Positions 25,169-50,831 of a stretch of 64,000 bases of DNA are shown one piece after another. The notes under the pieces are model-generated. The model was not told where the DNA came from and did not search any database. It saw only the letters and a list, made by a program, of their open reading frames with translations. The DNA is from an uncultured Alistipes sp. (GTDB taxonomy: Bacteria; Bacteroidota; Bacteroidia; Bacteroidales; Rikenellaceae), in NCBI GenBank assembly GCA_944326855.1, contig CALVFO010000027.1, positions 1 to 64,000 of the forward strand. The letters run 5' to 3'. Made by a program: the position numbers and the translations under genes. Within the stretch, counting starts at the first letter, position 1. Every line of letters begins with the position of its first letter.

Positions 25169-25765
25169 TTAAAAATTGTACCCCGCCGAAATGTAGAATG
25201 ACCCGTTTCGGAGTTTCGGATCGCCTTCTGTATAGTTTTTAGGTAAGTTAACGAAGCTCAGGTCATATCCGGCTCCAACATATACGCGATTGATCAATAC
25301 ACCCAATGCTATTTTCAATCCCACATCCCCGCGTTTCAGAGCTCCGTTCGAACCGAACAGATCACCACTCTGGGTCTGTCCCATGAAAGACTGTTTGAGC
25401 GTTCCCGAAACACCGAATGCGAAATAAGGGCCTACAGCGGGTTGAATGGCCCAAGTATCATTGAGTTGGATGCGATAAGCGAATGTCGCCGGAATTTCCA
25501 CATAGGCCAGATTAAACGTAGATGAAGTACCTTCTCGGGTGAGTTTTCCTCCTTTGAATTGCAACATCACCCCCGGTTCAAAAAAGATCGGGGTACTGGA
25601 CGAAAGCTGCAAACGATACAAGCCGCCCACATGGAATCCCACTTTGGAGTTGTAATTGGTCATGCTGGCAATGTTCACACCGGCACGTACGCCGAAACCG
25701 TTATCTTGAGCATAGACATTCAACCCAAGAAAAACCATAACGATAAGCAAGTAAATCCTTTTCAT
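25169..25765 (-). CDS. outer membrane beta-barrel protein (porin family)
   Basis: This 198-residue protein has a cleavable signal peptide (hydrophobic stretch ending V-Y-A-Q) and then alternating strands with glycine and aromatic residues typical of an eight-stranded outer-membrane barrel (PF13568-like). Examples are G-V-R-A-G-V-N-I-A-S-M, a central F-F-E-P-G-V-M-L-Q-F-K-G-G, and the terminal S-F-Y-I-S-A-G-Y-N-F. It ends with Phe, the usual C-terminal signal for barrel insertion. The ligand is unknown. It is the last gene of the leftward lipoprotein group, with 73 bp separating it from the lipoprotein stop. Confidence 0.88.
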   Translation of the reverse strand: MKRIYLLIVMVFLGLNVYAQDNGFGVRAGVNIASMTNYNSKVGFHVGGLYRLQLSSSTPIFFEPGVMLQFKGGKLTREGTSSTFNLAYVEIPATFAYRIQLNDTWAIQPAVGPYFAFGVSGTLKQSFMGQTQSGDLFGSNGALKRGDVGLKIALGVLINRVYVGAGYDLSFVNLPKNYTEGDPKLRNGSFYISAGYNF

Positions 25766-28123: not shown

Positions 28124-29677
28124 TTACTCCGCCTTTATCCATTCGACGTCAATGGATTTCTGGTTGTACACCCACCCGCCAATCAGTATATGGGACGGTC
28201 TCTCTCCTGTCGAGGTCATTATCGGGAAGGTGCTTTCCCCATCGCCGGGATTGTATTCGCAGTCCAATTCTAACAATATCGTATTTTTGCTGATATCCAG
28301 CCCTGTCAACTTACACCATGAGCAGGATAACGTCTTCAGCTCCGGGTTGTTGCGGATATCCAGTTCTGTCAACTTACTCCATGAGCAGGATAACTTCTTC
28401 AGCTTCGGGTTGTTGCTTACATTCAGCTTCACCAAATAAGTGTAGCCGCAGCTCAACTCCGTCAGTTCCGGGTTGTTGCTTAGATCCAGCTCCGTCAACT
28501 CAGTGAATGTGCAGCGCAACAACTGCAGCTTCGGGTTGTTGCTTAGATCCAGCTCCGTCAACGGATTCTCATTGCAAATCAACTGTTCCAGCTCCGTGAG
28601 CTGACTGACATCCAGCTCCGTCAACTGATTGTCTTGGCAATACACTATCGTCAGTTTCGGGTTGTTGCTTAGATCCAGCTTCGTCAACTGATTGTTTTGG
28701 CAGCCCAACCTCGTCAGATTCGGGCTTTTGCGGAGATCCAGTTCCGTCAATTTATTGTCCGGGATCTCCAATTCAATCAGCCCCGGGTTGTTGCTTAGAT
28801 TCAGTTTTGCCAAAGGAGAGGAGCCGCAGGCCAACCCCTCCAGCTTCGGGTTGTTGCTAAGATCCAGCTCCGTCAACTGATTGTAACCGCAGCCCAATAT
28901 CGTCAGTTCCGTGTTTTTGCTGAGATCCAGTTCCGTCAACAGATTGACACTGCATTCCAACCTTTCCAGCTCCGGGTTTACATTCAGCGACGTCAACTGA
29001 TTGTACGTGCAGGCCATCCCCTCCAGCTTCGTGTTTTTGCTTACATCCAGCTCCGTCAACTGATTATAGTGGCAAGACAGTATATTCAGCGACTCGAAAT
29101 ACTCGATCCCTCGCATAGAGGTCAAAGGACCGTAGTTATCAGGACTCCCCGAAACATCCAATTCGGTAATCGCGGCAATATGTTTCATATCATCCCCCGA
29201 GATATATTCCGCATCGGGAATATATTCTCTCTCCTGCAACACCCGGGCGAACACCGGATCGAACAGGGATGCATAGTTACCGTCTTCATGGGTGCTTCCG
29301 ACGGAGAAGTCCTTCTTGCCCCACTCCGAAGGGCTGAACAAATCGGGCTGGGCGGTACTGACCGCCTACACCATGATGGAGTGGCTGCCTTCCTCGAATT
29401 TACTGTACGGCTGGAGTTCAAGGCGTGTTTCCCCGGTTTCGTACACGGTTTCGTCTCCGGAAATCTTGTAGTGGTAGTTGTCCGCATTCTTCACCGCCGG
29501 CCACGAGGCGATGATGGTCTGTGCGTCCCTGTCCACATTCACTGTGACGACCGGAGTGGCGAGTTGCGTCTGGGCATCCGGCTTGTCGATAGCGGGCGTT
29601 TCGTCTTTTTCGCATGCCGTCACCAGGGGGAGGGCAGCGAATAGCATCACGAGTCGGAAGTAAAATTTTGTTTTCAT
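28124..29677 (-). pseudogene. leucine-rich-repeat surface lipoprotein interrupted by one amber codon
   Basis: One frame runs from the ATG at 29677 to a stop at 28124 except for a single TAG at 29366-29368. Part one (103 codons) has a lipoprotein signal (lipobox V-T-A-C) and a fibronectin-III/SusE-like domain. Part two continues in the same frame: the rest of that domain (S-T-A-Q-P-D-L-F-S-P-S-E-W), a linker with F-D-P-V-F-A-R-V-L-Q, then about 13 leucine-rich repeats of 21 residues (x-L-x-C-x-x-N-x-L-T-x-L-D-L-S-N-N-P-x-L) from about residue 198 to 470. The TAG falls inside the domain where Gln (CAG) is expected, so a C-to-T transition explains it. Unless suppressed, only the short N-terminal lipoprotein is made. 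The repeats are of the surface adhesion/interaction type common in Bacteroidota. Confidence 0.85.
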
Positions 29678-30421: not shown

Positions 30422-33322
30422 TTGAATACGAAACGCTACATCCTGTTTTGTCTGCTCGCCGCGCTGGCGATCTTGCCGCCGGATGGTGCCGCGGCTACTT
30501 CAGAGCCCGTCACCGTCACCTCGGAATATGCCCGCCGCCATTACACGACGCAGGACGGCCTGCCGCAGATGCTGACCGAGTACATCTGGCAGGACGCGAA
30601 AGGATATATCTGGGTGGGTACCTTGAGCGGCTTCGTACGCTACGACGGATTTGAGTTTATCCCTTATTTAAAAGGAAAGCAGGAAAATATTCTCTCCTTC
30701 TGTCCCGGAACGGACGGCAGCATATGGGCTCTCGGCTTCAGACGCAGACACCTGGTGGACCGGGACGGGAAGATGCGAACGCTGCCGCTGAACGGGCGCG
30801 GACTCTTGTTGAACAACCTCAATGCCTATTCTCTGCCGCCGGGATGGGTGTTGCTGGAAGACGAGCAGGAACGCGGGCGCGAAGTCTGCCGTCTGACCGA
30901 CGAAGGGGCGGAAACCGTATTGAAGTCGCCTGCGCTGGACAGTATGGACCTCTGCCATAGAGTTTATTGGGACAGTGTTTCAAAGATATTCTATATCCCC
31001 ACCGCTCGTCACGTCTGTCGGATCAAGACCGATGGCACCACCCTCTCCCCCATCCAGGTGTCCGAATCCTACTCACTTCTGAGAGACGGGGAGCGACTCT
31101 ACCTTTTTGCGGCTGACGGTATCTATGAAGTGGAGAACGGCCGCGCACGCCCCTTGGCCTCCTATCGTTTCCTGGCACCCGACTACGGCGTGGCCGCCTG
31201 TGCCGACCGCAAGGGAAACATTTTTATACATGATGCCCACAATCTGTATTGCTTTTCGAAAGATGGCAGCGTCAGGCACATCGTAGACGGCATCAACCTC
31301 ATTCGCCAGATGTGTATCGACCGCGAGGGCAACCTCTGGCTGGCCACCTATCAGGGCGTTTATAACTTCTTCCAGCTGAATTTCGTAAACCATCGTCTGA
31401 GCGATCACAACGACATCCTGCGCGCTATCGACGAAGATGCTCAGGGACGTTTGCTGACGGGGACCCTGAACGGGCGCCTTCTGAGGGGGAAGAATGCCGC
31501 TGAATTACGTCCCATTCCTTATCCTCGCGAGTCGGACAACTACTTCCTGCCCCGCACGGCCCGCATAGGCGGCACTACTTACCTGCTGGGCATGGGTGAT
31601 GTGCTGGCCTGCAATGGCGGCGGATGCCGGTGGCTGGGACTGCCGTGGCTCAACTACCAGTTCCTGGGCAGCTACGCCGACAGCCTGCTCGTGGCCACCC
31701 GCCAGGCACTCTACATCACCGACGCACGTGGAGGCATTCGTCAGACACATGAAGGCCTGCGCGGTGTCTTTTGCGCCTGTCCTGACGGGGACGGCAACCT
31801 CTACGTGGGTACCGCCTACGGGGTGGTGCGCCTATGTGGCGGAGAGCGCCGAAACATCGTCATGCCGGACAGTAGCATTGTCTGTACGGCCATGACCGTC
31901 AATCCTTATGGTGAAATCCTCTTTGCCTCGGGCGAAAACCTCTACACCGTGCGCAACGACTCCGCCGTATTGGTGCAAAGCTACGGCAATCTGATACGCT
32001 CGATTCATCAGACGGGCGACAACTTTCTCATCGTGGCTGTCACCGATGGGCTTTACATCACCGACAACCGTCTGCTGCAGACCATGTTTTTCAACCAGTA
32101 CAACGGTTTCACGGGCATCGAACCCCTGGCTGCCCGCATCGCCGAGACCGGCGATGGTACCGTCTGGATTCCATGCGTGGACCAGACGGTGTCTTTCCAT
32201 CCGCGTGAGTTGGTCTATCAGTATACCACGCCCAGGCTGGAACTTTTGTCCGCGCAGGCGTCGGCCGACAACGTCCACTGGCAGCCCTTCTCGACCGGTG
32301 CCGACGGACGTATTCGCTTGGAACACGGGCTGCGCAACCTGCGCTTCTCCTACATCGCCATCTCTCATTCCGCCACCGGAAATGTACGCTACCGTTACCG
32401 TCTGAAAGGCTTCCAGGAACAATGGTCGCAGCCGCAGACCGGACGTGAGGTACAATTCAATAACCTGCCGCCCGGACGCTACCGCTTGGAGGTATCGGCC
32501 CTGCTGGGCAATATCTCCTCGGATACCATCGGGGTGGACTTTCACCTGTTGCCCGCCTTTTGGCAGCACGGGTGGTTCTGGCTGGCGATTGCACTGGGAC
32601 TGAGCAGCGGTATCTGGACTCTGTCTTACACCTACTACAAGCGGCGCGACCGTCGGAAGATGGACGAGCTGCAACGCGAAATCAAACTGAACAACCTGTT
32701 GGTGAAGTCTATCCGCTTGAAGTCCATTCCCCACTTCAATGCCAACGTGTTGGCCGGGATTGAATATTTTATCCAGACCCACTCGGTCACTCAGGCCAAT
32801 CATTACCTGTCATTGTATTCGCGTTTTACCAATTCTACCCTGTTGGATGTGGACAAGCCCTCTCGTTCCATCAGCGACGAGATACAGTATGTCAAACTTT
32901 ACCTTTCGTTGGAACAATTGCGTTACGGCGAAAGTCTTTCCTATCATATCCGTGTGGCGCCCGATGTGGATACCGGTACACAAGTGCCAAACATGATATT
33001 GCACACCTACTGCGAAAATGCCGTGAAACACGGACTTCGCAACAAACCGGGAAACGGACATATAGATATCGAAGTCACTACCCGCGAGGACGGCATTAAC
33101 ATTGCCGTTACCGATGACGGTGTGGGACGCGAAGCCGCCGCCGCCTTTTCCTCTTCCTCCACCAAGCAGGGACTCAGCATCATGGAGCAGCAGATTGAAC
33201 TATACAACCAACGTAACGACAAACACATCGTACAGACCGTGACCGACCTCAAGACCCCGGAGGGTCGAGCCTGCGGCACACGCTTCGAGTTGTTCGTTCC
33301 CAGCCACTATAACTATTTCTGA
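30422..33322 (+). CDS. Reg_prop/Y_Y_Y sensor histidine kinase (LytS-type His_kinase core)
   Basis: This 966-residue membrane protein starts with a signal peptide. Its long periplasmic sensor is built of Reg_prop beta-propeller repeats (T-T-Q-D-G-L-P-Q, G-Y-I-W-V-G-T-L-S-G-F-V-R-Y-D-G, G-N-L-W-L-A-T-Y-Q-G-V), then a Y_Y_Y domain (Y-R-Y-R-L-K-G-F-Q-E-Q-W) and one membrane helix near 715-740. The cytoplasmic core is of the His_kinase (PF06580) type with P-H-F-N-A-N-V-L as H-box, followed by the ATPase motifs C-E-N-A-V-K-H-G-L and V-T-D-D-G-V-G-R-E. It lacks the AraC/receiver fusion of hybrid systems, so it should signal to the adjacent regulator. No ATG is in frame; TTG at 30422 is the only plausible start. 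Related sensors respond to glycans or peptides; the signal is unknown. Confidence 0.9.
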   Translation: MNTKRYILFCLLAALAILPPDGAAATSEPVTVTSEYARRHYTTQDGLPQMLTEYIWQDAKGYIWVGTLSGFVRYDGFEFIPYLKGKQENILSFCPGTDGSIWALGFRRRHLVDRDGKMRTLPLNGRGLLLNNLNAYSLPPGWVLLEDEQERGREVCRLTDEGAETVLKSPALDSMDLCHRVYWDSVSKIFYIPTARHVCRIKTDGTTLSPIQVSESYSLLRDGERLYLFAADGIYEVENGRARPLASYRFLAPDYGVAACADRKGNIFIHDAHNLYCFSKDGSVRHIVDGINLIRQMCIDREGNLWLATYQGVYNFFQLNFVNHRLSDHNDILRAIDEDAQGRLLTGTLNGRLLRGKNAAELRPIPYPRESDNYFLPRTARIGGTTYLLGMGDVLACNGGGCRWLGLPWLNYQFLGSYADSLLVATRQALYITDARGGIRQTHEGLRGVFCACPDGDGNLYVGTAYGVVRLCGGERRNIVMPDSSIVCTAMTVNPYGEILFASGENLYTVRNDSAVLVQSYGNLIRSIHQTGDNFLIVAVTDGLYITDNRLLQTMFFNQYNGFTGIEPLAARIAETGDGTVWIPCVDQTVSFHPRELVYQYTTPRLELLSAQASADNVHWQPFSTGADGRIRLEHGLRNLRFSYIAISHSATGNVRYRYRLKGFQEQWSQPQTGREVQFNNLPPGRYRLEVSALLGNISSDTIGVDFHLLPAFWQHGWFWLAIALGLSSGIWTLSYTYYKRRDRRKMDELQREIKLNNLLVKSIRLKSIPHFNANVLAGIEYFIQTHSVTQANHYLSLYSRFTNSTLLDVDKPSRSISDEIQYVKLYLSLEQLRYGESLSYHIRVAPDVDTGTQVPNMILHTYCENAVKHGLRNKPGNGHIDIEVTTREDGINIAVTDDGVGREAAAAFSSSSTKQGLSIMEQQIELYNQRNDKHIVQTVTDLKTPEGRACGTRFELFVPSHYNYF

Positions 33323-33337
33323 CCCAACTCCCCGACT

Positions 33338-34072
33338 ATGAAAAATTACCGTGCCATCATCGTCGAAGACGAGCGGTTGCCCCGCCTGTCGCTCCTCCAG
33401 AAACTGGAAACCTATCATCCCGATATCGAGGTGGTGGACTGTTGCGAATCCTACGAAGCCGCCCTTACCTCCATCCTGCGCCACAGACCGGACATCCTCT
33501 TTCTCGACATCCAGTTACAGGGACACACTACCTTGGAGTTGTTGCGTGAGCTGAAGGAAGCCATCCCTTTGCCTCACATCATCTTCACTACGGCATACAG
33601 CAATTCGGAGTACCTGCTGCAGGCTATTCGCTTTGCCGCTGCCGATTACCTGTTGAAACCCGTGAATGTATCGGATCTGGCAAAAGCCATTCACCGCATC
33701 GAGGAACGGGATGCAACGACTCCATCTTCTTCCTTCCCATCCCAGGCACAGTCAGAAAAATTTCCTTTCCGTACCCTTAACGGTACCCTCTATGCAGGCA
33801 AGGATGAAGTGGTCTACGTACGTGCCAACGGCAATTATTCCAACATCATGTTGGTTAAAGGCGAGGAGATTGTGCTGGAAAGGCTTGGCGTCATCGAAAG
33901 GAAACTGGGCACGAAGTACTTTATCCGTGCCGGACGTAACCTCTTGCTCAATCGCAACCTGATATATAAGGTTAACCGCAAGCACAAATGCTGCATTCTG
34001 CGCACTCCCGGCGGGCAGGAATACAATGTGGAGTTGTCAGCCGGGGGACTGGAAGCGGTGGAAAAACGGTGA
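33338..34072 (+). CDS. LytTR-family response regulator
   Basis: This 244-residue protein has an N-terminal receiver domain with the acidic pair E-D-E near residue 10, phosphoacceptor Asp in L-F-L-D-I-Q-L, Thr/Ser in I-I-F-T-T-A-Y and Lys in L-L-K-P-V. After a Ser/Pro linker comes a C-terminal LytTR DNA-binding domain with V-V-Y-V-R-A-N-G-N-Y-S-N-I and the R-A-G-R-N-L-L-L-N-R segment. It starts 15 bp after the sensor kinase stop, so the two are translated together. The three 21-bp-spaced repeats upstream of the operon are its likely target. No terminator with a T run was seen directly after it. Confidence 0.92.
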   Translation: MKNYRAIIVEDERLPRLSLLQKLETYHPDIEVVDCCESYEAALTSILRHRPDILFLDIQLQGHTTLELLRELKEAIPLPHIIFTTAYSNSEYLLQAIRFAAADYLLKPVNVSDLAKAIHRIEERDATTPSSSFPSQAQSEKFPFRTLNGTLYAGKDEVVYVRANGNYSNIMLVKGEEIVLERLGVIERKLGTKYFIRAGRNLLLNRNLIYKVNRKHKCCILRTPGGQEYNVELSAGGLEAVEKR

Positions 34073-49757: not shown

Positions 49758-50831
49758 ATGAAAAAACACAATTTCAGTGCAGGACCTTCCATCCTCCCGC
49801 GTGTAGCGATCGAAAATGCCGCAAAAGCTGTCTTGGATTTTGACGGTATCGGCCTTTCGTTGCTCGAAATTTCGCACCGTAGCAAGGATTTCGAAGCGGT
49901 CAATGATGAGGCCGAAGCGCTTTTCCGCGAGTTGCTGCAAGTTCCCGATAATTATAAGATTCTCTTTTTGGGCGGAGGGGCCAGCACCCAGTTTTTCCAG
50001 GTGCCTTACAACCTGCTCGAACACAAAGCCGGTTATATCAATACCGGGGTCTGGGCCAAAAAAGCCCTCAAGGAAGCCAAAAATTTCGGAGAGGTGGAAG
50101 TGATCGCCTCCTCGGAAGATCGTAATTTCAGCTATATCCCTAAAGAATATACCATCCCGACGGATCTGGATTATCTGCACATTACCACCAACAATACGAT
50201 TTACGGAACCGAATACAGAGGCGATATGAATTCTCCGGTAACGCTGGTGGCCGATATGAGTTCGGATATTCTGTCGCGTCCGGTGGATGTGACCAAATAC
50301 GGGTTAATCTACGGCGGAGCTCAGAAAAATATGGGACCGGCCGGGGTAACCTTCGTGATCGTACGTGAAGATATTTTAGGCAAGGTGAGTCGTCCGCTGC
50401 CTTCGATGGTGGATTATCGCAACCACATCGCCAACAAGTCGATGTTCAATACGCCTCCGGTGTATGCGATTTATGTGGTGCGCGAAACGCTCAAATGGCT
50501 CAAATCCATCGGGGGTGTGCCCGAAATCCAGAAACGCAACCAGGCCAAAGCGGCCTTGTTGTACGGCGAAATCGACCGCAACCCGCTTTTCAAAGGAACG
50601 GCTGCGGTGGAAGACCGTTCGTTGATGAACATCTGTTTCGTGATGGCGGACGGGTACGAAGATCTGGCTCCGGAATTCCTGAAATTCGCGACCGAACAGG
50701 GCATGGTAGGCGTCAAGGGCCATCGTTTGGTGGGTGGTTTCCGGGCATCGACTTACAACGCGCTGCCGATCGAAAGCGTACAGGCATTGGTGGATTGCAT
50801 GCGTCAGTTTGCGGAACAACACGCTCGTTAG
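49758..50831 (+). CDS. serC: phosphoserine aminotransferase
   Basis: This 357-residue PLP enzyme converts 3-phosphohydroxypyruvate to phosphoserine, and can also serve pyridoxine synthesis. The start [11 protein letters not shown] and the PLP-lysine segment [12 protein letters not shown] are diagnostic; [10 protein letters not shown] lies near the end. The ATG at 49758 is used; the TTG three codons earlier is unlikely. serA follows after 78 bp. Confidence 0.96.

Follow-up and report, generated by a model that had tools for sequence, protein, structure and literature searches.

The window, by which we mean the whole 64,000-nucleotide stretch of an uncultured Alistipes sp. contig (CALVFO010000027.1) analysed here, contains a minus-strand frame that reads as a leucine-rich-repeat (LRR) lipoprotein and is interrupted by one TAG. 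We asked whether this codon separates two genes, is read through, reflects an error in the assembly, or breaks what was a single gene. Translation of 28124-29677 bore out the statement in an earlier note that a 103-codon lipoprotein frame and a 405-codon LRR frame are one frame with a single TAG between them; the figure of 405 codons applies when the 3' piece is counted from its first TTG (29341). No second premature stop was found in the translation of the whole frame, and all 413 codons past the TAG are open up to a TAA, as the same note had held in claiming no other downstream lesion. The features are as follows (ends of the fn3-like domain and of the LRR cap are approximate).

28124-29677, minus strand: whole gene, one frame broken only by the TAG
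29369..29677, minus strand: 5' piece of 103 codons, with lipoprotein signal peptide, lipobox Cys and most of the fn3-like domain (translation; lipobox read by eye)
29366..29368, minus strand: in-frame TAG, codon 104 (translation of the window)
28127..29365, minus strand: 3' piece of 413 codons, with the end of the fn3-like domain, the LRR cap and the LRRs (LRR_4 match, E 1.5e-17)
29291..29560, minus strand: fn3-like domain, about residues 40-129, spanning the stop (alignments and shuffle control)
29090..29266, minus strand: N-terminal LRR cap (FDPVFARVLQ...), common to the LRR lipoproteins of the genus of locus L031
28277..29089, minus strand: 13 leucine-rich repeats (LRR_4 match and repeat count)
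28124..28126, minus strand: natural terminator TAA (translation)

The stop stands out within the window. Among 3603 stops in six frames, 123 are flanked by at least 60 open codons on each side, and the TAG at 29366-29368 ranks second of these for coding signal on both sides. Codon log-odds in the gene's frame were 0.21 and 0.17 per codon for the flanking pieces, and the 3' piece gave -0.32 and -0.14 when read in the two alternative frames of the same strand. The stop ranked first, at 50829, lies between two adjacent ORFs sharing a frame, and those at 33320 and 22926, also on this list, lie between adjacent ORFs that happen to share one.

With respect to the encoded protein, the 5' piece carries a lipoprotein signal peptide with the lipobox LVTAC (residues 18-22, identified by eye), and no signal peptide belonging to the 3' piece itself was seen. 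The 3' piece matched Pfam LRR_4 with 63.6 bits (gathering cut-off 27). The repeats had been described as perfectly periodic, which proved slightly too strong: of the 12 steps among the 13 repeats, counted from residue 197, 11 are 21 residues long and one is 19. Pfam fn3 (PF00041) gave no match at E values up to 1 on the window's domain, queried with an X at the stop, and scored 33.1 and 24.2 bits (cut-off 25) in the relatives L047 and L105, respectively. A single-sequence AlphaFold2 model was confident for the LRR solenoid alone, and since pLDDT was near 30 up to about residue 170 it is uninformative on the place of the stop in the fold.

One question was whether the fn3-like domain runs across the stop. 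Residues 1-205, with an X at the stop, were used as the query in a search that reads through stops and counts them, and this matched 85 of 268 genomes via either the fn3-like part or the LRR cap. The 57 fn3-like relatives used below are a subset of the matches in these 85 genomes. Extending the query by the 25 residues past the stop improved the score in 55 of the 57, with a summed gain of 225.0 bits. When the same 25 residues were shuffled (60 shuffles), a mean of 25.6 and a maximum of 45 of the 57 relatives gained, and the summed gain averaged 44.3 bits (sd 24.6, maximum 136.0). Because some shuffles also raise scores, the number of gaining relatives is a weaker measure than the summed bits. 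Both the 55 gaining relatives and the summed gain exceeded what the shuffles produced, so that the fn3-like domain runs across the stop, and the earlier placement of the TAG within an fn3-type domain holds in this fn3-like form. The same note had argued that the domain pattern calls for Gln at the stop, and this was not what the alignments gave. In the 55 that cover the stop column (two of the 57 do not reach it), the residue is Lys in 23, Val in 10, Arg in 6, Met in 5 and Gln in only 4, with Thr and Gly in two each, and Ala, Leu and a gap in one each. From this composition, Gln at the stop is possible and not favoured.

We then considered the possibility that the locus holds two separate genes, a short lipoprotein gene followed by one for an LRR protein starting at TTG 29341 or further down. 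Adjacent ORFs sharing a frame do occur in the window, for example at 50829 and 33320, which is in favour of such an arrangement. Three observations led us to reject it, and we hold it to be the least probable of all explanations: the residues right past the stop continue the fn3-like domain, the first in-frame ATG 3' of the TAG is codon 164 and thus within the LRR cap, and LRR-cap frames in the relatives examined do not stand alone as intact genes. This last point follows from a census of LRR-cap frames in these loci, 25 of them distinct (26 minus one cut copy of another; L105 and the copy in genome G026 fall outside the 25, as their caps are too different). An in-frame upstream lipobox signal peptide was found by pattern in 20 of these, and in L099 a lipobox missed by the pattern was read by eye (MKKTGFLVALSDVSEAGC). 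The remaining four are one frame that runs off the locus end (the second frame of L097), two that are frameshifted (L115, G243:C8, within the LRR cap, and L154, G062:C12, 3' of the signal peptide), and one shortened frame from which the lipobox and a large part of the spacer have been lost (L157, G062:C14). The last three come from two other genomes of the family, and two frameshifts and one lipobox loss among 25 frames mean that loss recurs in this LRR lipoprotein family. Orthologues that stop at the same place and carry a separate gene starting at the LRR part, named in the earlier note as evidence against its reading, were looked for. No separate intact gene of this kind was found among the relatives examined, and none of them combined the same stop with a start codon and ribosome-binding site ahead of the LRR cap. 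Two loci, L088 (G068:C49) and L089 (G214:C28), contain similar LRR lipoprotein frames that break off early, with about five repeats, ahead of stop-rich sequence; these may be shortened copies.

Judged from the sequence, then, the two pieces are one gene that has been broken. The alignment with relatives that had been proposed as a check showed no stop at the corresponding place in any of the 57. This result has a bearing on two further explanations. The main alternative to a nonsense allele is an error of consensus or assembly at the TAG, or a mixed population in which TAG is the minority allele, with the gene intact in most cells. It fits with the lack of the stop in all 57 relatives, and with the draft state of the genome (55 contigs, 93% complete). 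On the other side, the TAG site 29366-29368 lies outside any homopolymer, and polished short-read assemblies seldom contain an isolated wrong base within a gene of 1.5 kb, which counts against a consensus error. We regard an error or mixture as improbable, while still placing it ahead of the other alternatives.

The second explanation is readthrough of the stop at some rate, by near-cognate decoding or an unseen suppressor, yielding a little full-length lipoprotein. The open frame and coding signal over the 413 codons past the stop are compatible with this. A search for an amber suppressor, as suggested previously, showed that none of the 39 tRNA hits in the 93% complete assembly has anticodon CTA (38 were read by ARAGORN, and the remaining one, truncated by a contig end, shows a TTC loop on inspection by eye). 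A tRNA-Ile with anticodon GAT was likewise missing from these hits, so the tRNA set is incomplete, which is unsurprising in such a draft, and a suppressor tRNA could sit in the missing part of the assembly. Release factor 1 (prfA) is present with 498 bits, PylS gave no match in the same genome at E values up to 0.001, and TAG ends 8 of 46 other ORFs in the window (chosen for their length and codon signal, not all of them proven genes), which agrees with the earlier argument that TAG-terminated neighbours speak against general recoding. General recoding, pyrrolysine insertion and a suppressor tRNA thus remained unsupported, and the lack of the stop in all 57 relatives also argues against readthrough.

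The literature can be read in both directions here. PMC7918605 argues that bacterial genes widely contain in-frame stops, many of them with dN/dS below 1, that readthrough is frequent and that many stop-bearing genes are not pseudogenes. The same paper describes such stops as tending to persist only briefly, and assumes functional recoding to be absent from the vast majority. Altogether we consider readthrough at some rate to be quite unlikely. The more specific idea of an amber codon maintained as a leaky stop that keeps the full LRR lipoprotein at a low level, with the fn3-like stump as the main product, seems to us more doubtful still.

It had also been proposed that the intact downstream frame means either a recent mutation or readthrough. 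To put a number on the first possibility, we counted 172 single changes in the 413 codons 3' of the stop that would create another stop. A model that assumes the transition rate ratio to be 4, and that considers stops but no indels, gives a frame free of further stops a probability of one half at 0.017 neutral substitutions per site and of 5% at 0.074. The missing second stop therefore sets only a loose 95% bound on the age, of ∼0.07 neutral substitutions per site, and on this estimate the intact downstream frame says 'not old' rather than 'functional'. Both parts of the proposal are possible in principle; the intact frame fits with a stop that is not old, and nothing that we found favours readthrough.

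The explanation that we prefer is an ordinary nonsense allele of an accessory surface lipoprotein gene, whether as a young pseudogene or as a polymorphism that is still segregating, and we consider this very probable. The gene has the mark of a nonsense pseudogene, i.e. a premature stop where relatives are intact, while the coding signal kept by the downstream frame and the lack of a second lesion count against the gene being dead. As originally composed it would have encoded one exported lipoprotein with a signal peptide and lipobox, an fn3-like spacer, an LRR cap and 13 LRRs. Translation would now end at the TAG and yield a lipoprotein stump of 103 residues that lacks the last stretch of the fn3-like domain, and the LRR part, for which no separate signal peptide was seen, would fail to reach the surface. 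The outcome would most likely be loss of function. One more broken accessory surface gene carries little weight alone. It is, however, one more sign that the lesions breaking LRR lipoproteins of the family differ from genome to genome, and it is a warning against annotating the 5' and 3' pieces as two genes.

The surroundings of the gene were inspected as well. Divergent from it, at 30422-34072 on the plus strand, lie a two-component sensor (Reg_prop, Y_Y_Y, His_kinase) and a LytTR response regulator. The sensor kinase had only partial matches in the 8 other genomes of the genus, at 31% identity or less (the best match covers ∼230 residues at 25% identity), so that gene order could not be used for finding an orthologue. 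The minus strand at 25169-25765 weakly matches the outer-membrane beta-barrel family NF049866 (50.6 bits, cut-off 135).

With respect to the gene itself, its first 205 residues had no match in the 8 other genus genomes at E values up to 0.001, and the 3' LRR part had matches in 5 of them, all partial. The 5' piece alone, searched against the genomes of 61 relatives at the same threshold, gave one match outside its own genome (in G029), and a scan with the 3' piece gave 13 loci in genome contigs and 2 in viral contigs, all of them distant LRR relatives with a best segment of 56% identity. The viral-collection loci L044 and L045 lie on a contig (IMGVR_UViG_3300035698_010599) with many short adjacent LRR genes that have an FNEEDWDE-type motif near their start in common.

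Finally, we compared the gene with systems already known. A literature search on LRR lipoproteins in Alistipes found no paper that we judged pertinent. The closest systems include other loci of the same family: L031 and L093 (G216), L087 (G215), L105 (G257) and L158 (G029) have a lipobox signal peptide, a related LRR cap and the same type of LRR. L093 and L031 (recorded as uncultured Alistipes sp.) have 293 of 293 sampled 40-mers in common, which points to Rikenellaceae as the family. G257 (L105, 477 aa) and G026 (483 aa), which belong to one other genus of the family, show the order lipoprotein, fn3-like domain, LRRs within a single open frame; in L105 the lipobox was seen, as were Pfam matches for the LRRs and, just below the cut-off, for the fn3-like part. 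These two copies have an fn3-like spacer like that of the window gene but are distant from it (26-30% identity). The LRR lipoproteins with the nearest caps, up to 70% identical over the matched part, differ in having, in place of the fn3-like spacer, either a short linker or an Ig-like spacer of another kind. In G029 (C3:549500-553500), two adjacent LRR lipoprotein genes (L003 and L158) have near-identical Ig-like spacer modules, which suggests duplication and module shuffling.

Outside the family, the LRRs are similar in sequence to those of the class 1 internalin InlJ (NF033187; 200.8 bits, best stretch residues 62-298 of the 3' piece), but with a cut-off of 1700 bits the gene is no member, the LRR part alone matches, and unlike InlJ the window gene has a lipoprotein anchor and an fn3-like spacer. 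With regard to the lesion, the cases treated in PMC7918605 differ in that the stop is known here from one genome, where selection past it is not measurable. The likeness to the nonsense alleles and young pseudogenes described there is nevertheless clear: one in-frame stop, a frame that is otherwise open, and relatives that are intact.
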